Notes: generated from the sequence alone by a model not told the origin. Shown: positions 2 through 10,031, counted from the stretch's first letter. The stretch is 10,031 nt of DNA from Deltaproteobacteria bacterium RIFOXYA12_FULL_61_11 (GCA_001799195.1 MGSU01000137.1:1-10031); one strand, 5' to 3'. Made by a program: numbers and translations.

Positions 2-1012
2 AGCCCCGGCACCTTGCGCTATTCCATCGGCCGCGTCGTCATCACCGCCCACCTGTCTCCGCACTACACCAGGGAATGGCCGGATCGAGGTTCCACCGGC
101 CGAGTGCTGCTCGAGATCCTGGAACGTCAACGACCCGACGTAGTCCTGACCATGCTCACCGATTACCAGGCCCTGGCGGCGGCTCACCGCTGGGCCGGCC
201 GCAGGCTCACCTTCCTCATGGACGACGAATACCCGCGACCCGAGAATCCCTTGCTGACGGGTTCCGGAGGCTCCGAACTGGCAACGGTCTTCTCGGAACT
301 CCCTCGGGTGATGACCTGTTCGGCCTATCTCGCGAAGAGCTTTGCCGCGGCCTGGGACCGACCGACCACGGTGCTCTACGGTCAGATCGAGCGCCGGGCC
401 TATCTCGTCCCCCCTGACCTCGCCCCCCTCCCCGGCGATCGTCACGTCGGCATGGTGAATCCGGTGGCGGTCAAGGGCGTGAATCTCTTCCTCAGCGCGG
501 CGAAGTTATTTCCCGACCTGCGCTTCAGCGCCCTGCTCAATTGGATAGGTACTCCCGAGCAGCGAAACGGTCTCGACCGGCTTCGCGCCGAATTGCCCAA
601 CCTGCGCTTCGAGGAGAATACACCCGACCCCCGAGGGTTTTACGCCCGTACCGCGCTCCTGCTGGTGCCCTCGCGTTGGCACGAGGGCTTCGGCCGGGTC
701 GCCGTCGAGGCGCTGCTCAACGGTATCCCCGTGTTGGCTTCCCGGATCGGCGGTTTGCCCGAGGCTGTGCCCCATACTCCCTGGCTGTTACCCCCGCCCA
801 CACTGGAGGCTCCGGCACGGACCGAGGAAGAGTACCGGGCCCACCACCTCTGGTTCGAGACCATGCACGAACTCCTCCAGCCCCGGAACACCGAGACCGT
901 CCGCGCCACAGCCCTCCAACTGGCCAAAACCGTGCTGGGGGTCCTGGAAACGAGCTATCGAACCTTCCTAGGGGAGCTTTCCGGGACAGCGCGGCGCGAG
1001 AAGGAAGGTTAG
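2..1012 (+). CDS. GT4-type glycosyltransferase, 5'-truncated by window edge
   Basis: This is the C-terminal 336 residues of a glycosyltransferase that should transfer a sugar from a nucleotide-sugar donor in cytoplasmic glycan assembly. The frame is open to the left edge. A TTG at 14 could be read as a start, but the protein opens in the middle of the N-terminal Rossmann domain (the PDVVLTMLTDY strand-loop), so the true start is outside the window. Family evidence, numbered from base 2: the inter-domain KG motif with K158, followed by a strand ending PDLRF, and the donor-site block HEGFGRVAVEALLNGIPVLA with the GT4/GT-B E-x7-E pair E228 and E236, then a glycine-rich loop IGGLPEAV. A ~60-residue helical tail follows. 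No membrane segment is visible. The donor and acceptor cannot be read from the sequence. The family is well supported, the specific function is not. No Shine-Dalgarno or promoter can be assessed. Confidence 0.9.
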   Translation, partial: SPGTLRYSIGRVVITAHLSPHYTREWPDRGSTGRVLLEILERQRPDVVLTMLTDYQALAAAHRWAGRRLTFLMDDEYPRPENPLLTGSGGSELATVFSELPRVMTCSAYLAKSFAAAWDRPTTVLYGQIERRAYLVPPDLAPLPGDRHVGMVNPVAVKGVNLFLSAAKLFPDLRFSALLNWIGTPEQRNGLDRLRAELPNLRFEENTPDPRGFYARTALLLVPSRWHEGFGRVAVEALLNGIPVLASRIGGLPEAVPHTPWLLPPPTLEAPARTEEEYRAHHLWFETMHELLQPRNTETVRATALQLAKTVLGVLETSYRTFLGELSGTARREKEG

Positions 1013-1112
1013 AGCTTTTCTGAAAACAGCCGAGCTTGAATATTTTTTCCATTCTATTTTCATACTGTTGCTGAAATATTTCCTACGAACAGCCCCAAAA
1101 TGGCCCCAGCAT

Positions 1113-1142
1113 TTGACACACTACGCCATTCTATGCTAGAAG
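1113..1142 (+). promoter_or_regulatory. Candidate sigma-70-type promoter of the protease gene
   Basis: A perfect -35 hexamer TTGACA lies at 1113-1118. Eighteen bases later comes TAGAAG at 1137-1142, matching the -10 consensus at four of six positions, preceded by TG at 1134-1135 as in extended -10 promoters. Transcription would start near 1149-1150, leaving a leader of about 38 bases before the ATG at 1187. The site lies at the end of an AT-rich stretch (about 1015-1112) between two GC-rich genes. It is a motif match only; the 18-base spacer is slightly long. Confidence 0.5.
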
Positions 1143-1176
1143 GGACCTCGGTTCGAGATCCAACCCAGAACCCAGC

Positions 1177-1181
1177 GGAGG
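1177..1181 (+). promoter_or_regulatory. Shine-Dalgarno site that decides the protease start
   Basis: GGAGG five bases before the ATG at 1187. The alternative in-frame ATG at 1100 has no purine-rich site, lies upstream of the candidate promoter, and would bury the signal peptide behind 29 polar residues. The ATG at 1187 is therefore preferred. Confidence 0.8.
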
Positions 1182-1186
1182 GGGGC

Positions 1187-2845
1187 ATGCGCACGACACT
1201 ATTCGTTCTGGTTACGGCACTCTTGGTCGCGTCGACCGTCTCAGCAGCGGAACCCAAACGCTACATCGTCGCCTTCGATACCCGCACCACGGTCGGTACC
1301 GCTGAAGCCCAGGTTCTGAGCGAGCTCTCTTCGGTCATCGCCCAGCAACTCGCCGATGAGGTCGAGGGCTTGCAAGTCCGCGGCCGGCTGGCCCTCATCA
1401 ACGGTTTGGTGATCGAGGCCGACGAAGCTGCCCTGGCCCAGGTCACAACTATCGCTCACGAGGCGGCCACGCACCGTCTGCCCGATCTCGCGACCTTTGC
1501 CAACAGTTCCCAGGATGACCTCGAACAAGTCGTCATTATCGAGGAAGACTTCCCCGTGTACGCGTACGGCGAAGCGCCCTGGGGCATCGACCGCGTCGCG
1601 GCCGTGCAGGTTTGGGACAAGGACAAAGACGGCAAGCTCGACAACGGCGCGCCGGTCGGCAAGGGCGTCAAGGTCGCCGTGCTCGACACCGGTATCGACT
1701 ACCGGCATCCCGATCTCAAAGCCAACTATCGCGGCGGGTACGACATCATCAACAACGACAATGATCCGCTCGACGATAACGGTCATGGCACCCACTGCGC
1801 CGGGACCATCGCTGCCGTGCTCGACGGCAAAGGCGTGGTCGGCGTGGCTCCGATGGCCGAACTCTACGGCGTGAAAGTCCTGGCCGGGAGCGGCGGCGGC
1901 TCCAGCACCAGCGTGATCCAGGGCATCGAATGGGCGGTCGCCAACCGCATGGACATCATCTCCATGAGTTTGGGCAGCCCATGGCCGAGCAAGGCCCAAG
2001 AGATGGCCTTGCAGAAGGCCTACGATGCAGGCATCCTGACCATCGCGGCCTCGGGCAACAGCGGCACCGGTTCCCTCGGGTATCCCGCCGGGTACGAAAG
2101 CGTGGTCGCCGTGGGCGCGCTCGATGCCACGAACACCCTGGCATCCTTTTCACAGTACGGCAAAGGCCAGGAACTGGTCGCTCCCGGAGTCGACGTCTAT
2201 TCGACCTTCCCGCTCGGCTTCGGTCGCAAGCTTGAGGCCCGTATCCTCGACGAGGGCCCTGCCGTGACCGACTTCGGCATCCTGGCCAAATCCCCGCTCA
2301 CCGCGACCGAGGGCGTCACCGGTGAACTCGTTCCCGCCGGTCTTGGTAAACCCGAGGATTTCCAGGCATGTAGCGGAAAAATCGCCCTGATCAAACGCGG
2401 CGAACTCAAGTTCCACGAGAAGGTGGTCAATGCCCAGCAGGCCGGCTGTAGCGGCGTGGTCCTCTTCAACAACGAACCGGCCAACTTCAGCGGCACCCTC
2501 GAGGACAACCCCAAGGTGACCATCCCGGCCGTGAGCATCAGCGGCAACGACGGCGCCAAGATCCTGCAACACCTGCAAGACAAACCCGTGCGAATCAACA
2601 TCAAAGTATTGACCGATGACTATGCCCAGCTCAACGGCACCTCGATGGCCTGCCCGCACGTCAGCGGCGTGGCCGCACTGGTGCGCTCGGCCTTCCCGAA
2701 GCTCACGAATGCCCAAGTCCGCAAGATCCTGACCTCTACCGCGGCCGACCTCGGTGCTCAAGGCTATGACGAGAAATACGGTCATGGTCTGGTCAACGCG
2801 GCCAAGGCCGTGCAGCTCGCCGAAGAAGTTCTCAAGGACCTCTGA
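1187..2845 (+). CDS. Secreted subtilisin-family (S8) serine protease with inserted PA domain
   Basis: A 552-residue endopeptidase exported by Sec. Residues 1-20 are a signal peptide (MRTTLFVLVTALLVASTVSA, cut before AEPKRY). Residues ~24-130 resemble the I9 propeptide/inhibitor (KRYIVAF ... LINGLVIEADE ... EEDFPVYA), which normally folds the enzyme and is then removed. The catalytic residues are complete: D167 (AVLDTGIDYRHPDL), H200 (NGHGTHCAGT), oxyanion N291 (ASGNSG) and S486 (NGTSMACPHVSG). Residues ~342-477, between N291 and S486, hold an inserted protease-associated (PA) domain (GKIALIKRGELKFHEKVVNA, then VVLFNN), the arrangement known from Vpr-like subtilisins. An EF-hand-like loop, DKDKDGKLD at 144-152, sits just before the catalytic Asp and lacks the acidic residue at position 12. 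Four cysteines remain after export: C204 and C489 beside the active site, C395 and C421 in the PA domain. It has its own promoter and is probably not in the flanking glycosyltransferase operon. The substrate is unknown. Confidence 0.93.
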   Translation: MRTTLFVLVTALLVASTVSAAEPKRYIVAFDTRTTVGTAEAQVLSELSSVIAQQLADEVEGLQVRGRLALINGLVIEADEAALAQVTTIAHEAATHRLPDLATFANSSQDDLEQVVIIEEDFPVYAYGEAPWGIDRVAAVQVWDKDKDGKLDNGAPVGKGVKVAVLDTGIDYRHPDLKANYRGGYDIINNDNDPLDDNGHGTHCAGTIAAVLDGKGVVGVAPMAELYGVKVLAGSGGGSSTSVIQGIEWAVANRMDIISMSLGSPWPSKAQEMALQKAYDAGILTIAASGNSGTGSLGYPAGYESVVAVGALDATNTLASFSQYGKGQELVAPGVDVYSTFPLGFGRKLEARILDEGPAVTDFGILAKSPLTATEGVTGELVPAGLGKPEDFQACSGKIALIKRGELKFHEKVVNAQQAGCSGVVLFNNEPANFSGTLEDNPKVTIPAVSISGNDGAKILQHLQDKPVRINIKVLTDDYAQLNGTSMACPHVSGVAALVRSAFPKLTNAQVRKILTSTAADLGAQGYDEKYGHGLVNAAKAVQLAEEVLKDL

Positions 2846-2852
2846 GCCCTCT

Positions 2853-5800
2853 TCAGCTCTCTTTCCTCGCCCCGACCTTCTTGTAGAACTCGTGGAAACT
2901 GACGTTCATCCCCAGATTATCGCAGGATTTGAGGCACTCGATCGGAGCGAAGTAGCGGTCCCTCTTGCTGCAGGTGAGGGCCAAGGTTCGGAAGCGTTCG
3001 TACCGCGGAGAACGCCAGACCGCCCCGAACGATTGTTCGCGCAGATCGCCCATGGGCATCCGAGAGGCCTTGCAGCAGGGTAATACCTTGCCCGCGGCCG
3101 TGATCCGGCTGTAGGTCCAACCGACATAGCAGGGCAGGGTGTCGACCAGTTGCTCGTACCGTCCGGCCTCGACCTCAACCGACCCGAGGCGTCTGCGGAA
3201 CGAACCAATCCCCAAGACCGATAGGAAAGGCGCCGTGGCGTTCCAGGTCCTCCGGTCGATCGCACAACGTTCCAGCAGGTGGCAACGCGAACAGCTCGAA
3301 CGTCCGAAATGGAAGGCATAGGCATTGGCGAAGTTGTCCTCTTCGACGCGCAGGTTGGCCAGCCCGCGCTTGCACGTGAGGCGCATCGCCGAAAGGTCCT
3401 CGAAGTGGGCCCGGAACCCTGCGGGGAGACGTTCTTCGAGGAAGAAACGCGCAAACTCACGCAATTCGGAACCGATCTCGGCGAGCGTAGCCGGATCGAC
3501 CCGGGTCATGATGTTGTCGGCCCGAACAGCCAGGCCTTCGAGCACGGCAAGGACCTCGTCGGCCATGGCCCTGGTCAAGAGCAGCCCCTCGGTGACGCCT
3601 TCCACCACGTCCACGGGTTGGAACTCCAGGCTGGCAACACCATGGCTCCGGGCGTGCTCGATCATGGCGGGGAGGCCGCGGTAATTGAGCGCGGAGATGA
3701 CGTGGTAGAGCTTGACCCTCGGCAGGAGACTGCCGCGTTGCCGTTTGAAATCCTCGAGCAACCCGAGACGCCTGCTGATGCCCTCGAAGGTCTCTGCTCC
3801 CTGGCCAGGGTGGGTCGCCTGGTAGGTGGCGGCATCCCCAGCCCACAGACTGGCGGTGAGCTGATCCAGACCGAGTTCGACCAACGCGGAGAGTTCTTCT
3901 GCCTCCAGCCGGGTGAAGTTGGTGACCAGGTTGCACCACAACCCGCGTCGTTTGACCAGGGCCACGATGTCCAGAAAACGCGGATGCAGGGTCGGTTCTC
4001 CCGACCCCGAGAGCTGGATCGCGGTGACACCCATGTCCTGCGCGTCGTCCACGAGGCGTTCGAGGAACTCGTAGGGCAGGAAACCGACCGACTCCTGGTC
4101 CCGGCGATGCCGACGCACGGCCCGGTCATGGATCCAGCACCCGGCACACTGCAGATTGCAGCGATCGCTGAGTTCGAGCTCCAACAATTCGGGACCGCGC
4201 TGGACTCCGTGCCCGACCCGCACTCCGGCGACAATGCCAGCGAGCTGGCGAGAGCGCCACGCCTCCCGGCTAAGCAAGGCCACCGAGGGCGGCTCGGGTC
4301 CAGCGACCGCCTGTTCCAGATGCACCCCAGACCCCCGAAAGGCCTCGAGCTGCTCCGAGAGAAGTTCGGCGAGGCTCCCTTGCACCGTGATCAGTTCCAG
4401 ACCGTCCTCAGCGAGCTGCCCCGTCTTGCCGTTCCACAGGGTAAGCGCCTGCACCGTCGCCTGGCATTGCAGGCGGAACGCAAAGCGGTAGTAGCCGAGC
4501 GCATCCAGGAACTCCTCGAAGGCGTGGGCCTCCGCGAGCGGATTCCGGTCGCCGAGGAGCAGTGGACCCTCATACCCGTTCTCGTACCAGGCGGCCACGA
4601 TCGAACAAAGCGCCGCGAGTCGTCTCCGCCGACAGCTCTGCGGCTCGGGTTCCTCCAAGCCGAGGAAAAGGACCGGCATGGCGCCGCGATAGTCAGCGCC
4701 ACCGTGGCGCAGCGCAAGCAAGGTCGAGCGGTGTCGTTCGATGGATGACCAGGGTAGGAGGTACGAGGCGACCTCACCGGCACGGTAGGCCAGCCCCGCG
4801 CAAGGTGACAAGGCCCTTCCCGCCCTGGCCCTGGAGAGCAGCATCGCGAAGGCGTCGGTATAGCCCTCGACCAGGTAGACCACGCGATGCTGGTCGCACT
4901 CCGGGGCCTGTTCGGCGTCCTCTCGAGCCACCAGTAGGGCAACGAGCAGGTGCTGGTCGCGGGCTCGCAAGCGCTCGAGGAAGGCCTGGAGCAAAGGGCT
5001 CCTGGTCTTCCTGCCGCACAGCAGGATCATGCGACCGCGCAGGGCCAGCACCTGGCCGGCCACGTGTTCGAGGTCTTCCTCCAACGCGACGTCCGGAGGC
5101 AGCCCCTTGCGCAGACCGAGGTCGGTCAACTCCGCGCCCAGGTCGACCTCGGCGCAACGCCAACCCGAGGCAGCGGCCTGTTCACGCGCGGTCAGGAAAG
5201 GGACGGGCTGGTCGGGCCGCTCGGGCCACTCCAGGTTGACCAATACCGCGTCCCAGGCGAGGGAGAGCATGGTTTCTGAAGGAATTGACGTGGGCTTCCG
5301 CTCCAGGGCGGAGGTGCTGAGCTCGAACAGAGCCGGTTCCAGGAGGCCCAGTTCGGCCGCATGCCCCATCACCACGAGGGTCCGGTCGATCCGCTCTGAG
5401 AGGGTACATTGGCCACCGTGCTCGAAGCGCCACAGCTTGAAGCGTTTGGGGAAACGCACTCCGTGGTGGAGGGCGTGATCGTAAAAGGCCGTACAGGAAA
5501 CGAGTTGGTAGGGCAACAGCCGCACCAGTTTCGGGCTGAACTCGGCCAGTTGTTCCAGGTAGCGGCAGGTTTCGAATACTTCGTCCTCGCGCTCATCCGG
5601 CCAACCAAGGCGTGTGCCGAGGCGAAGCTCCAGCCCTGCAGCCGCAGCATCGCGCAGGTTGCGGGCCACGGTGCCGCGATCATAGCCGAGGGCGAAGGTG
5701 GCGGCGAGACGATCGCTGAAGGTGGGGACCTCAAACTCGATGGTCGCGGCGCCGGCTCCGCGCCAGGCCCGGAAGAAGGCCGCGTCCAACCGGAGATCGG

Positions 5801-6626
5801 GCCGGAACGGAGTCCTCTGCGCCAGGCACAACCCGAGGTGCTGCACCAGATCGAGGACCTCGCGCAGGAGGTCGAGACCGTCGTTCTGGGGGCAAGGACC
5901 TCCCAGGCCGAAGCAGGTCCTCCCGCTCTCCCGGTACCAGCGTTCCAGATAGGCCGCCACGGCCGTGCAATCGCCAGAGCTGGAGGGGCCGAGGTACGGT
6001 CCGCACCAGGCTTCCAACCCTACCCCGGCACGGCCGAGATCGAGCGGCAGCAGGCCGAAGGCCTCAAGCAGGTGCGGCGGCAGTTCAGTCGTAGCGAGGA
6101 GGCTGTAGGGTTCCGGCCCGCCGTCGCCGGAACAGGTAAAAGCCGAGGGCCGGCCGGAGAGGGGGGGGTAGCGCAGCCCGGCCAGGTCGTCTCGACCTTC
6201 GAAGAGATAGCCGGCCAGGGGGTGCAGCGTACGCCCGAACAGCATGGCCTGGTAGAAATCCGGTGCCTCGTGGACGATCGGCCGCTGGGAGGCAGGCCCC
6301 AGCACCAGCAAACGCCGACCGGTCGCGTCGGCTATGCCCCGAAGCGAGCGCAGGAACTCCACGTTCGCGCCGTCGTAACGCGCCAACCAGACCTCGGGCA
6401 GGTTTTCCAGCATGGGCCGGCAGCGCTGGAGAAGCGCTTCGTGCTCGTCGTCCTCGAACGCGCCCCAGGCGACCCGGCAGCGCTCCCGTTCAGTTAGCAC
6501 GTCCCCGAGCTGGACCAACCCGGGTTCTGAACCATGCCGCCGCAGCCAAGCCAGGAGGGTCAGCAGGTCGAAATCCTCGGCGTGAGGACGATCATAGGGT
6601 GTGACCAGTACTGCACTATCCATCAT
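2853..6626 (-). CDS. Giant radical SAM/SPASM protein with degenerate B12-rSAM-like N-terminal modules
   Basis: About 1257 residues from the ATG at 6626. Residues ~813-1010 are a radical SAM core: LSDRCNLQCAGCW carries the CxxxCxxC ligands (C823, C827, C830) of the SAM-binding 4Fe-4S cluster, and SGSGEPTLHP (874-878) is the GGE-type SAM-binding motif. The C-terminus has SPASM-type cysteines: CSRCHLLERC, then C1166 (LPCYVGWTY), KVLPCC, a MGDL...FGAVWRSPRYERFR block, and a final C...CLKSCDN, expected to bind auxiliary Fe-S clusters. SPASM enzymes mainly modify peptides or proteins, and some act in glycan pathways; the substrate here is unknown. Residues 1-~445 and ~500-720 resemble cobalamin-binding/radical SAM proteins without cluster cysteines (by eye, less certain). 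Start choice: GGA lies five bases before ATG 6626. ATG 6659 overlaps the upstream stop as ATGA but has poor ribosome-binding sequence; ATG 6623 is also possible. The frame is open to 6959, but that part overlaps the upstream gene and has no domain character. Confidence 0.88.
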   Translation of the reverse strand: MMDSAVLVTPYDRPHAEDFDLLTLLAWLRRHGSEPGLVQLGDVLTERERCRVAWGAFEDDEHEALLQRCRPMLENLPEVWLARYDGANVEFLRSLRGIADATGRRLLVLGPASQRPIVHEAPDFYQAMLFGRTLHPLAGYLFEGRDDLAGLRYPPLSGRPSAFTCSGDGGPEPYSLLATTELPPHLLEAFGLLPLDLGRAGVGLEAWCGPYLGPSSSGDCTAVAAYLERWYRESGRTCFGLGGPCPQNDGLDLLREVLDLVQHLGLCLAQRTPFRPDLRLDAAFFRAWRGAGAATIEFEVPTFSDRLAATFALGYDRGTVARNLRDAAAAGLELRLGTRLGWPDEREDEVFETCRYLEQLAEFSPKLVRLLPYQLVSCTAFYDHALHHGVRFPKRFKLWRFEHGGQCTLSERIDRTLVVMGHAAELGLLEPALFELSTSALERKPTSIPSETMLSLAWDAVLVNLEWPERPDQPVPFLTAREQAAASGWRCAEVDLGAELTDLGLRKGLPPDVALEEDLEHVAGQVLALRGRMILLCGRKTRSPLLQAFLERLRARDQHLLVALLVAREDAEQAPECDQHRVVYLVEGYTDAFAMLLSRARAGRALSPCAGLAYRAGEVASYLLPWSSIERHRSTLLALRHGGADYRGAMPVLFLGLEEPEPQSCRRRRLAALCSIVAAWYENGYEGPLLLGDRNPLAEAHAFEEFLDALGYYRFAFRLQCQATVQALTLWNGKTGQLAEDGLELITVQGSLAELLSEQLEAFRGSGVHLEQAVAGPEPPSVALLSREAWRSRQLAGIVAGVRVGHGVQRGPELLELELSDRCNLQCAGCWIHDRAVRRHRRDQESVGFLPYEFLERLVDDAQDMGVTAIQLSGSGEPTLHPRFLDIVALVKRRGLWCNLVTNFTRLEAEELSALVELGLDQLTASLWAGDAATYQATHPGQGAETFEGISRRLGLLEDFKRQRGSLLPRVKLYHVISALNYRGLPAMIEHARSHGVASLEFQPVDVVEGVTEGLLLTRAMADEVLAVLEGLAVRADNIMTRVDPATLAEIGSELREFARFFLEERLPAGFRAHFEDLSAMRLTCKRGLANLRVEEDNFANAYAFHFGRSSCSRCHLLERCAIDRRTWNATAPFLSVLGIGSFRRRLGSVEVEAGRYEQLVDTLPCYVGWTYSRITAAGKVLPCCKASRMPMGDLREQSFGAVWRSPRYERFRTLALTCSKRDRYFAPIECLKSCDNLGMNVSFHEFYKKVGARKES

Positions 6627-6655: not shown

Positions 6656-9600
6656 TCATCGTCCACGCCGGCCGAGGACCTGCTCGACCCGGGACAGCAT
6701 TCCGGTTCGTTTTCCCGGTGTTTCGTTCCGCGTGACCAGGGCCTGCAACCGCCCCACTTCTTGCTCGAGGTCGCGTAGGCGGGACTCGGACTGTGCTCGC
6801 TCCGTGCGTTGGTCCTCCAGCCTGGCCTCGAGCCTGCCACGCAGTTCCTCGAAGGCCTGATCCTTCGTCCCCCCGCGGTGTTCGGCAGCGATCAGTTCGG
6901 TCCTCAACAGTTCGAGGAGCTGGTTCTTGGTCTGCAGGTCCCCGGTCAGGGCCTTGCACTCAAGCTCACGCTCTCTGGCCGCGGTGGCGGCATCTCGATG
7001 GAGCTGCTCGAGCGTGGCCAGCCTTCCCTCTAGCTCCTGGCGCGCCAATTCGAACTGCTGCGCTTGGAGAGCGCGCTGACGCTCGTGTTCCTCGCGTTGG
7101 CGCAGGCAATCCCCTGCCCTCTCGTCCCGCTCCGCGATCAATTGGGCGATGCGACCATCCCGGGTGCTGATCTCGTGGTGGCTGGAGGAGGCCAAACCCT
7201 CGATGCGACGGTGGTTGTCGGTCTCCACCTCTTCGATCTTCCGGGCGAGACGGTTGCGATCCTCGAGCAAGGCCTCGTAAGCCTGTTGCTGTCTCACCTG
7301 GTCACCGGCCTGCGCCTGCTTGAGACCCTCGAGACGCTGGTCGAAGGCAACGGCCTGCTCTTCGAACTTCTGGGCGAGACGGTCTTTCTCGGCGAGCAGT
7401 TGCTCGTAACGCTCAACCTGCCGGTGCAGTTCCCGTTCGGCGCCCTGCTTGACGAGGAGGACCTCATTCTGCCAGCGAGTCTCGTTTTCTTCCAACTTCC
7501 GGGCCAGACGGTCCCGCTCGCCTGCGACTACCTCAAGCTGGACCTGGTGCCGCGCTTGGGCTTCTTCCTGCTTCCGGGTCAACCGATCCTTCTCGCCGAG
7601 CAGCGCCTCGTACCGGGCGACCTGCTTCTCCGTCTCTTTCGCCGCTTGGCGCGAGAGTTCCTCGAGTTGGGCCTGGTGCTGCGCCTGCATTTCTTCCTGC
7701 TTCCGGGTCAGCCGATCCTTCTCTCCGAGGAGCGCCTCGTACCGGGCGACCTGCTTCTCCGTCTCTTTCGCCGCCTGGCGCGAGAGTTCCTCGAGTTGGG
7801 CCTGGTGCCGCTCCTGTGCTTCCTCCTGCTTCCGGGTCAGCCGATCCTTCTCGCCGAGCAGGGTCTCGTACCGAGCAACCTGCTTCTCCGTCTCTTGTAC
7901 CGCTTGAGCCGAGAGCTCTTCGAGCTGAGCCTGGTGCCGCTCCTGTTCTTCCTCCTGCTTCCGGGTCAACCGATCCTTCTCGGCGAGCAGCGCCTCATAC
8001 CGAGCAACCTGCTTCTCCGTCTCTTTCACCGCCTGAGCCGAGAGTTCCTCGAGCTGGGCCTGGTGCCGGGCCTGTTCTTCCTCCTGCTTCCGGGTCAGTC
8101 GGTCCTTCTCGCCGAGCAGCACCTCGTACCGAGCGACCTGTTTCTCCGTCTCTTTTGCCGCCTGAGCCGAGAGCTCTTCGAGCTGAGCCTGGTGCCGTTC
8201 CTGTTCCTCCTCTTGCTTCCGGGTCAACCGGTCCTTCTCGGCAAGCAGGGCCTCATAGCGGGCGACCTGTTTCTCCGTCTCTTTCGCCGCCTGTCTCGAG
8301 AGTTCCTCGAGCTGGGCCTGGTGCCGGGCCTGCTCTTCTTCCTGCTTCCGGGTCAGCCGGTCCTTCTCGGCGAGCAGCGCCTCGTACCGGGCAACCTGCT
8401 TCTCCGTCTCTTTCACCGCCTGGCTCGAGAGTTCCTCGAGCTGGGCCTGGTGCCGCTCCTGCTCTTCCTCCTGCTTCCGGGTCAACCGATCCTTCTCGCC
8501 GAGCAGCGCCTCGTACCGGGCGACCTGCTTCTCCGTGTCCTTAACCGCCTGGTGCGAGAGTTCCTCGAGTTGGGTCTGGTGCCGCTCCTGTGCTTCCTCC
8601 TGTTTCAGGGTTAGTCGGTCCTTCTCGGCGAGCAGGGCTTCATACCGCACCACCTGCCGCTGCAATTCCTCGGAACCCGTCTTCTGCAGTTCTTCGAGCT
8701 GGGTGCGGTGCCGCTCCTGCTCTTCCTCCTGCTTCCGGGTCAAGCGATCCTTCTCTCCAAGCAGCGCCTCATAGCGGGCGACCTGCTTCTCCGTCTCTTT
8801 CACCACCTGGTTCGAGAGTTCTTCGAGCTGGGTCTGGTGTCGGGCCTGTTCTTCCTCCTGCTTCCGGGTCAGTCGGTCCTTCTCGGCGAGCAGGGCCTCA
8901 TACCGGGTTTGCTCCTTGCCAAGTTGCTGGGCTTGGGTCTCTTTGAGTTTGGCGACCTGTTGCTGTCCACTCTCGCGGCTGCGCTCCAGCGCACGCTCGA
9001 TCCGATTCTTCTCCTTGAGCAGCTCGGCCAGGTTGCCGCGCTGTTCCCGCAGTTCTGCGGCGTGGGCCGTTTTTAGAGCCTCCACGTTCCGCCGGTGCTC
9101 CTCTTGTACTCCGTCGAGCCGGAGGAGCAGGCGGTCTCGCTCTTCCAGCAAGCGCTCGTAGCGGCGCTGCTCGCCGGAGGACCTCTCCTCGGAGGCAGTA
9201 CGCAGATGGACCAGCTCCTCGTGATGGCGGGCGATGGTCTCTTCGAGGGTCTGAGCGAGACGCGCCTTCTCGGCGTCGAGGGCCTCGAAGCGTCGTCCTG
9301 CTTGGGAGAGGTCCTCGTTCAAGCGGGCAAGGCTGCTCTCGTAGCGTTGCCGCAGCGAACGTTCCAGGTCCGCCAACCTGCGCTTGCCCGCTTTCTCCAT
9401 GAGTCGGAACTGGGAGGTGAAGACCTCGGCGAAGTCCTCTCCGCGCTCAGCCCGCACCGGGCGCTCGACGAATTCGAGGAAGCGGGGGTCGACGCTCCCA
9501 TGGCCATGACGTTCCGCCACCAGCCGTTGGGCATTCCTGCTGAAGTCGGCCAGGGGTTCTTTCCCCGCGGCGATCCGTTTCACCAGGGCGGGGAGTTCGG

Positions 9601-10031
9601 AAAGGTCCTCGAGCACCCATCCGGCGCGATAGGCCCGGACCTCCTCGGCGATATCCAGGTGCGCCGAGGTGATCACCGGCAGCCCGGCCCAGAGGTATTC
9701 GATGGTACGGGTCGAGGAGGCGAGAACGCGCTCGAGGTTTGGTTGGTAGAGGTCCACGGCAACCTGCGCCTTCGCATAGCGTTGCAACAACTCGGCATGG
9801 GGGAGAGGGGCCTGCACCTCGACGATGCCGGGAATGGGGGAAAAGCCGAGCCGGAGCTCGTTCCTCAGCGGATCCGCAACGAAGAGGGACAGCCTGGCCG
9901 CCCCCCCCGTGGCCACGCAGGACTCGGCGAGGAGCTGCAACGGTTTCCGGGAATCGATCCACGGCCAGAGATTCCCGGCATAGACGAATTCGACCCCGGA
10001 GCCGGGTTCGCGCTCGTAGGGAAAAGGTTCG
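6656..10031 (-). CDS. Glycosyltransferase fused to a very long repeat-built coiled coil, 5'-truncated
   Basis: Visible: 1124 residues from base 10030 to the TGA at 6658-6656. The frame is open to the right edge; a TTG at 9940 lies inside the fold, so the start is outside. Residues 1-~190 are the C-terminal Rossmann half of a GT-B (GT4-like) glycosyltransferase: a strand VEFVYAGNLWPW, then TRTIEYLWAGLPVITSAHLD. The second Glu of E-x7-E is present (IEYL), but Leu takes the place of the first. Residues ~205-1095 are almost uninterrupted charged helix rich in E, Q, K, R and L with no Pro, predicted to be a coiled coil. Residues ~370-832 are near-identical 43-residue repeats, and the same period continues, diverged, on both sides. 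The end is basic (KRTGMLSRVEQVLGRRGR). No signal peptide or membrane span is visible, so it is probably cytoplasmic or membrane-associated. It lies directly upstream of the radical SAM gene in the same operon. The sugar specificity and the job of the coil are unknown. Confidence 0.88.
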   Translation of the reverse strand, partial: EPFPYEREPGSGVEFVYAGNLWPWIDSRKPLQLLAESCVATGGAARLSLFVADPLRNELRLGFSPIPGIVEVQAPLPHAELLQRYAKAQVAVDLYQPNLERVLASSTRTIEYLWAGLPVITSAHLDIAEEVRAYRAGWVLEDLSELPALVKRIAAGKEPLADFSRNAQRLVAERHGHGSVDPRFLEFVERPVRAERGEDFAEVFTSQFRLMEKAGKRRLADLERSLRQRYESSLARLNEDLSQAGRRFEALDAEKARLAQTLEETIARHHEELVHLRTASEERSSGEQRRYERLLEERDRLLLRLDGVQEEHRRNVEALKTAHAAELREQRGNLAELLKEKNRIERALERSRESGQQQVAKLKETQAQQLGKEQTRYEALLAEKDRLTRKQEEEQARHQTQLEELSNQVVKETEKQVARYEALLGEKDRLTRKQEEEQERHRTQLEELQKTGSEELQRQVVRYEALLAEKDRLTLKQEEAQERHQTQLEELSHQAVKDTEKQVARYEALLGEKDRLTRKQEEEQERHQAQLEELSSQAVKETEKQVARYEALLAEKDRLTRKQEEEQARHQAQLEELSRQAAKETEKQVARYEALLAEKDRLTRKQEEEQERHQAQLEELSAQAAKETEKQVARYEVLLGEKDRLTRKQEEEQARHQAQLEELSAQAVKETEKQVARYEALLAEKDRLTRKQEEEQERHQAQLEELSAQAVQETEKQVARYETLLGEKDRLTRKQEEAQERHQAQLEELSRQAAKETEKQVARYEALLGEKDRLTRKQEEMQAQHQAQLEELSRQAAKETEKQVARYEALLGEKDRLTRKQEEAQARHQVQLEVVAGERDRLARKLEENETRWQNEVLLVKQGAERELHRQVERYEQLLAEKDRLAQKFEEQAVAFDQRLEGLKQAQAGDQVRQQQAYEALLEDRNRLARKIEEVETDNHRRIEGLASSSHHEISTRDGRIAQLIAERDERAGDCLRQREEHERQRALQAQQFELARQELEGRLATLEQLHRDAATAARERELECKALTGDLQTKNQLLELLRTELIAAEHRGGTKDQAFEELRGRLEARLEDQRTERAQSESRLRDLEQEVGRLQALVTRNETPGKRTGMLSRVEQVLGRRGR
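7118..7534 (-). repeat. Diverged C-terminal flank of the 43-residue repeat, with one phase break
   Basis: After the last core anchor at 7612 the next Tyr anchor (RYEQLLAEKDRL) is at 7408. That distance is 204 bases, or 129 plus 75, so one unit is shortened from 43 to 25 residues; its remnant is the ERDRLARKLEE segment. From there the 129-base phase resumes: AYEALLEDRNRL at 7279 and IAQLIAERDER at 7150. Beyond this the coiled coil continues without a clear repeat. Confidence 0.7.
7535..8926 (-). repeat. In-frame 129-bp tandem repeat array (43-residue coiled-coil unit)
   Basis: About eleven copies of a 129-bp unit inside the coiled-coil gene. The first base of the conserved Tyr codon of RYEALL falls at 8902, 8773, 8644, 8515, 8386, 8257, 8128, 7999, 7870, 7741 and 7612, exactly 129 apart with no indel. 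The typical unit reads ETEKQVARYEALL, then (G/A)EKDRLTRKQEE, then a variable QERH/QARH/QAQH, then QAQLEELS and a variable end such as RQAAK or AQAVK. The copy with its Tyr at 8644 and the end of the one before it are the most divergent (LQKTGS, EELQRQVV, TLKQ). Because the unit is a multiple of three bases, gain or loss of copies keeps the reading frame. Confidence 0.96.
8927..9292 (-). repeat. Diverged N-terminal flank of the 43-residue repeat, still in register
   Basis: Three worn units precede the array with the same 129-base phase: RFEALDAEKARL (anchor base 9289), RYERLLEERDRL (9160) and LAELLKEKNRI (9031). Each lines up with RYEALLAEKDRL of the core; the first also keeps LEETIARHHEEL against the core's QEEEQARHQAQL. 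Protein resemblance is clear, while DNA identity is much lower than between core copies. Confidence 0.75.

Follow-up and report, generated by a model that had tools for sequence, protein, structure and literature searches.

Cobalamin-dependent radical SAM enzymes with solved structures, such as MgmA (9CCB), TsrM (6WTE), OxsB (5UL3) and CysS (9N1D), are built as a B12-like Rossmann domain followed by a radical SAM barrel. AprD4 (6FD2), a radical SAM 1,2-diol dehydratase, has this fold and acts as a catalytic enzyme of a single module. More than one radical SAM module can also occur in one chain, as in FbiC, a fusion of CofG and CofH in which both modules are live and in which there are neither B12 domains nor a dead module. 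Kinases and other families have familiar examples of pseudoenzymes, and to our knowledge radical SAM modules that lack the cluster and lie beside a live one in a single chain have been little described. The families TIGR04347 (pseudo-SAM/SPASM) and PF19238 (Radical_SAM_2, "radical SAM-like") provide precedents by name for non-canonical radical SAM folds.

Here we analyze a 10,031-nucleotide stretch of DNA from Deltaproteobacteria bacterium RIFOXYA12_FULL_61_11 (hereafter the window), which encodes a protein with one intact radical SAM module preceded by degenerate ones. We consider it likely that this protein derives from a tandem enzyme of which it is an orthologue, shortened and in part inactivated, and that its dead modules have been kept to bind the substrate or to dock or position the intact module.

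A window protein with a single intact radical SAM module

The gene and its parts are as follows.

2853..6626, minus strand: window protein gene, 1257 aa; two degenerate B12-binding radical SAM modules (the second a putative assignment) and an intact radical SAM-SPASM module
5292..6626, minus strand: degenerate module 2, residues 1-445 (HMM, AlphaFold, Foldseek, VIA-align)
6003..6032, minus strand: former [4Fe-4S] loop, residues 199-208; RAGVGLEAWC replaces RGCxxxCxFC (alignments)
4212..5291, minus strand: putative degenerate, shortened module 3, residues 446-805; no CxxxCxxC, ~360 aa versus ~490
4812..5249, minus strand: predicted B12-binding-like Rossmann domain, ~residues 460-605 (AlphaFold, Foldseek, hhalign)
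2856..4211, minus strand: intact radical SAM-SPASM module, residues 806-1257 (Pfam; identity to orthologues)
4137..4160, minus strand: radical SAM cluster motif CNLQCAGC, residues 823-830

Searches with Pfam and NCBIfam gave matches limited to the C-terminal part of the protein, and neither collection offered a convincing family match for residues 1-805. Radical_SAM was matched at residues 818-946 (E 3.2e-16) and SPASM at 1166-1220 (E 6.5e-12), and residues 806-1257 carry both a CxxxCxxC motif and a SPASM domain with its auxiliary-cluster cysteines. This module shares 37-42% identity with its orthologues, all cluster cysteines being conserved, and its sequence indicates that it is likely the catalyst of the window protein. 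It scored 101 bits against TIGR04317 (tungsten cofactor oxidoreductase maturase), below the curated cut-off of 380 bits. TIGR04347 likewise matched the intact C-terminal module below cut-off, and neither TIGR04347 nor PF19238 had a match in residues 1-805. No CxxxCxxC motif occurs upstream of residue 823. An in-frame ATG at 6659, overlapping the stop codon of the upstream gene (ATGA, 6656-6659), is a possible alternative start and could be the true one.

Residues 1-445 correspond to a radical SAM module without its cluster motif

The sequence-only reading had proposed that the stretch 5290-6626 encodes a B12-binding radical SAM module that has lost its cluster. This proposal was borne out, with the boundary moved to the codon edge at 5292, and the peptides it had quoted are present: AVLVTPYD from residue 5, LAWLRRHG from 25, FRAWRGAG from 285, RLGWPDERE from 339 and WCGPYLGPSSSGDC at 207-220 (numbering from the ATG at 6626). 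Residues 1-445 had no solved-structure match by sequence in the PDB and were not detected by the Pfam B12-binding model, although a Rossmann fold is present in the predicted structure. Because the Pfam, NCBIfam and PDB sequence searches were empty, genome-wide searches were needed to establish homology. Within the same genome, residues 1-445 gave weak yet clear hits to ordinary B12-binding radical SAM proteins whose motifs are intact (best E 4e-9); in other genomes direct searches with tblastn and HMMs placed matches within ORFs of 2,018 and 2,449 aa (E 7e-14 and 4e-11). A profile HMM of 66 intact modules from other proteins, from which the window protein was left out, matched residues 1-445 with an E-value of 1.7e-15 and a score of 51.9 bits, compared with a maximum of ~0 in 300 shuffles (0/300 near).

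Structure prediction points to the same module. The AlphaFold model of residues 1-445 (pLDDT 73, pTM 0.78) is a B12-binding-like domain (~1-145) followed by a radical SAM-like barrel (~190-430); pLDDT was 92-98 at residues 281-370 and low at the former cluster loop. The input alignment held 31 relatives, intact ones among them, so the model may be biased towards their fold. Foldseek, one of the checks that the sequence-only reading had suggested, returned B12-binding and radical SAM barrel structures, the best being AprD4 (E 5.5e-11), TsrM, MgmA and OxsB. With VIA-align the model superposed on MgmA with Z 24.8 over 364 residues at 3.9 A, on AprD4 with Z 23.4, and on TsrM and OxsB with Z ~20. 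Thus two features of cobalamin-dependent radical SAM proteins, an N-terminal B12-binding Rossmann domain (AlphaFold model and PDB matches) and a TIM-type barrel at ~190-430 (Z 13-25), are predicted for residues 1-445, whereas the cluster motif at the start of the barrel is absent.

The site of the lost cluster could be placed precisely. The cluster loop in module 2 of a collinear relative (L015) aligns without gaps, RGC-SFR-C-AF-C standing opposite RAG-VGL-E-AW-C of the window protein. G201 and E205 therefore stand where the first and second cluster cysteines would be, and C208 ("WCG") is the third, leaving one of three. It had been stated that no ligand spacing remains here; CxxxCxxC is indeed absent, but C208 survives as the third cluster cysteine. 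Additionally, a family-conserved aspartate and glutamate are replaced by G243 and P301, substitutions that argue, at the level of sequence, against SAM binding by residues 1-445. In the late barrel GxP-E, T353 and R412 are retained. We infer that neither a cluster nor SAM is bound by the dead modules any longer and that they have lost catalysis.

Residues 446-805 as a probable second remnant

The degenerate stretch is real, as had been read, and was drawn too short, since residues 446-805 appear to be a second remnant. They lie where module 3 stands in the relatives, after module 2 and ahead of the SPASM module, and are ~130 residues shorter than that module. In the profile comparison they scored 6.1 bits, against a shuffle maximum of 0.7 (0/300). 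Across ~residues 460-605 AlphaFold predicted a Rossmann domain (pLDDT mostly 65-86), for which Foldseek gave TokK, CysS and TsrM as best matches (E 2e-5 to 3e-4). In hhalign this remnant was collinear with the B12-domain half (47-180 to 17-173, E 0.026). For the barrel half, ~residues 606-805, there was no profile match, no recognisable similarity and a poor AlphaFold model. The evidence for homology of residues 446-805 to module 3 is modest.

Tandem orthologues and the rarity of cluster loss

Residues 806-1257 found orthologues at 37-42% identity within ORFs of 2,018, 2,106, 2,070 and 1,444 aa. When GTDB contigs were scanned with a single sequence, no relative emerged; relatives were recovered with an alignment of the C-terminal module. 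They span Candidatus Wallbacteria, Deltaproteobacteria (fen_1099), Pseudomonadota, Cloacimonadota, Omnitrophota, UBP17 and archaea, and one small phylum (with genomes G036, G181 and G315) carries one copy in six of seven genomes (E <= 1e-60). The genomes searched yielded no close orthologue of the window protein.

The orthologues (1,444-2,106 aa) consist of two or three B12-binding radical SAM modules of ~480 residues each, followed by a radical SAM-SPASM module, and the long ones carry three or four CxxxCxxC motifs, one per module. In one of them (L068) Pfam matched Radical_SAM four times, B12-binding three times and SPASM once. A five-way collinear alignment showed that the window protein begins at module 2, module 1 being absent; an intact 1,565-aa form (in G389) has the same order, module 2, module 3 and SPASM. 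The window protein thus shares with this tandem group its collinear order and a homologous terminal module, with a weak match for module 3, and departs from it in having the cluster motif in the last module only. The sequence-only reading had envisaged a pseudo-radical SAM module fused to an intact radical SAM-SPASM enzyme; the intact partner stands, and the simple pair gives way to a shortened tandem with two degenerate modules. It had also held that an intact CxxxCxxC at this place in orthologues would speak against cluster loss. Orthologues do have it, and we read it instead as the ancestral state: their ancestor had a canonical module, as loss of the cluster requires.

Also observed were giant ORFs in which a single chain carries four or five copies of CxxxCxxC (L016:6939-14285 in G036, 2,449 aa; L073:14188-18822, 1,545 aa). 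The genome of the window also holds a paralogue (L014:485-4275, G000:C151) with an intact B12-binding radical SAM module (CISRCKFC) and a radical SAM-SPASM module (CNFDCSGC), the latter split by an apparent frameshift in an ORF that includes a run of N.

The CxxxCxxC motif was present in 76 of the 77 modules collected that span it. The exception, in L086, reads TGCPNGGLYC and has lost the middle cysteine; in module 2 of L078 all three cysteines are lost and the HMM match begins past the loop. In both proteins (L086:6149-8896 and L078:6158-11332) the cluster-less B12-binding module adjoins an intact radical SAM-SPASM module. A tree of the terminal modules placed the window protein in no supported clade, L066 being nearest by path, and a single clade of the window protein, L078 and L086 was rejected (p-AU 0.009, in a test limited by long branches). 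Since 76 of 77 motifs are kept and the one-clade grouping is rejected, loss of the cluster is uncommon and has probably been repeated.

Gene neighbourhood and genome

The other genes in the window are listed below.

6656..9940, minus strand: upstream gene, by reading resembling the C-terminal half of a GT4 glycosyltransferase, with a coiled coil encoded by 129-bp tandem repeats
1100..2845, plus strand: subtilase (S8) with PA domain, convergent with the radical SAM gene (Pfam Peptidase_S8, 2.3e-68)
14..1012, plus strand: GT4 glycosyltransferase, given as context (Pfam Glyco_trans_1_4, 9.9e-14)

The upstream gene is probably in the same operon as the window protein gene. Its repeat array (7531-8907) comprises 10.7 copies of a 129-bp unit with 84% matches, encoding a 43-aa coiled-coil repeat; Pfam detected no glycosyltransferase domain in it. 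In L066 a coiled-coil gene likewise lies upstream. The link of the subtilase to the radical SAM gene is uncertain.

Relatives of the window protein adjoin GT4 and GT2 glycosyltransferases, GT4-radical SAM-SPASM fusions and other radical SAM-SPASM proteins, and also an asparagine-synthase-type amidotransferase, ABC-2 export and a methyltransferase. These glycosyltransferase-rich neighbourhoods suggest a glycan- or glycolipid-like substrate; a role in RiPP maturation was considered and set aside, the neighbourhood favouring glycosyltransferases instead. GT4 fused to a radical SAM-SPASM module recurs near the tandem proteins (L066:1358-3943, confirmed by Pfam, and L078:2648-5101).

The genome of the window (4.6 Mb, 87% complete) gave 48 matches to the B12-binding domain, most above cut-off, the window protein not being included. 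These represent a large expansion, mostly of ORFs sized like B12-binding radical SAM proteins.

Possible roles of the dead modules

In the explanation we favour, module 1 would have been lost in the lineage of the window protein. Module 2 would have kept the fold of its B12 domain and barrel but only one of three cluster cysteines, with further conserved residues lost. From module 3 the cluster motif and a portion of the barrel would have disappeared. The terminal radical SAM-SPASM module, having kept its motifs, is the likely catalyst, and the dead modules would probably hold the substrate or position this module, acting on a product that complete enzymes process stepwise.

The dead modules might instead be functionless relics that are eroding while the SPASM module alone is in use. 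Such decay would fit the missing module 1 and the shortened module 3, as well as the state of module 2, which retains just 36% of 101 family-conserved columns; most intact modules keep ~80-91%, and divergent motif-bearing copies of module 2 (L066, L070, L074, L075, L077) keep 39-49%. However, ~800 codons have stayed open. Codon-position GC is ~0.70/0.48/0.79 over the gene and uniform across its three parts (0.73/0.49/0.79 for residues 1-445 and 0.74/0.48/0.80 for 446-805), the dead modules coming close to the live one and to the genes around it and being coding-like throughout. In addition, a six-frame HMM search found module signal confined to the frame of the ORF. Together, the single-frame signal and the coding-like GC speak against an artefact caused by a frameshift and, weakly, against free decay, since the open frame of residues 1-805 could be maintained solely by the live module downstream. 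Decay is further opposed by the late-barrel residues kept in the second half of the barrel, where the model reaches pLDDT 92-98 (residues 281-370), and by the retention of dead modules in at least two other proteins. On balance we regard it as unlikely.

Slightly less probable is that the cluster-less module was repurposed, binding cobalamin alone, a sugar nucleotide or a metal at C208, with a new catalytic or sensing function. Both remnants retain a B12-like Rossmann fold in the models, one cysteine is kept, and the residues lost differ among the three cluster-less modules (window protein, L078 and L086); but most of the positions conserved in the B12-like domain have changed as well, with 8 of 27 kept in the window protein. 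A sequencing or assembly artefact, in which a chimeric contig or a frameshift mimics degeneration of an intact module, is very improbable even though the window is one entire 10-kb contig of a 342-contig assembly, as the changes are substitutions within an open frame of coding-like codon-position GC and the six-frame search, with that GC, ruled out an intact second cluster hidden by a frameshift.

Comparison with known systems

Partial inactivation of a tandem enzyme remains our preferred reading, and it sets the window protein apart from each system with which it can be compared. Residues 1-445 resemble MgmA, TsrM, OxsB and CysS in overall build (Z 20-25), and differ from them, at 10-16% identity, in lacking two of three cluster cysteines and the conserved aspartate and glutamate. 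AprD4, the second-best structural match, works as a complete single module, whereas module 2 of the window protein lacks a complete cluster site. No description of tandem radical SAM proteins or of their dead modules was found in the literature searched (mostly open-access), and none of the curated families searched covers proteins that join tandem B12-binding modules to a radical SAM-SPASM module.

The nearest counterparts are the tandem proteins of candidate phyla (L015, L052, L053, L066, L068, L070 and L151, for which no family name was found). These are collinear with the window protein, and their module 2 is homologous to residues 1-445, but they have three or four live modules, all with CxxxCxxC, where the window protein has one. 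The same module position is thus found intact, intermediate and dead across phyla, which makes the remaining role of a dead radical module directly testable. Old enzyme modules appear to have been turned into non-catalytic partners of a working one. More tentatively, the modules of a radical SAM "assembly line" may be switched off individually with their fold kept, the dead ones carrying the substrate, or recognising it, on behalf of the live module; if so, they would be comparable in logic to the inactive modules of modular synthases.
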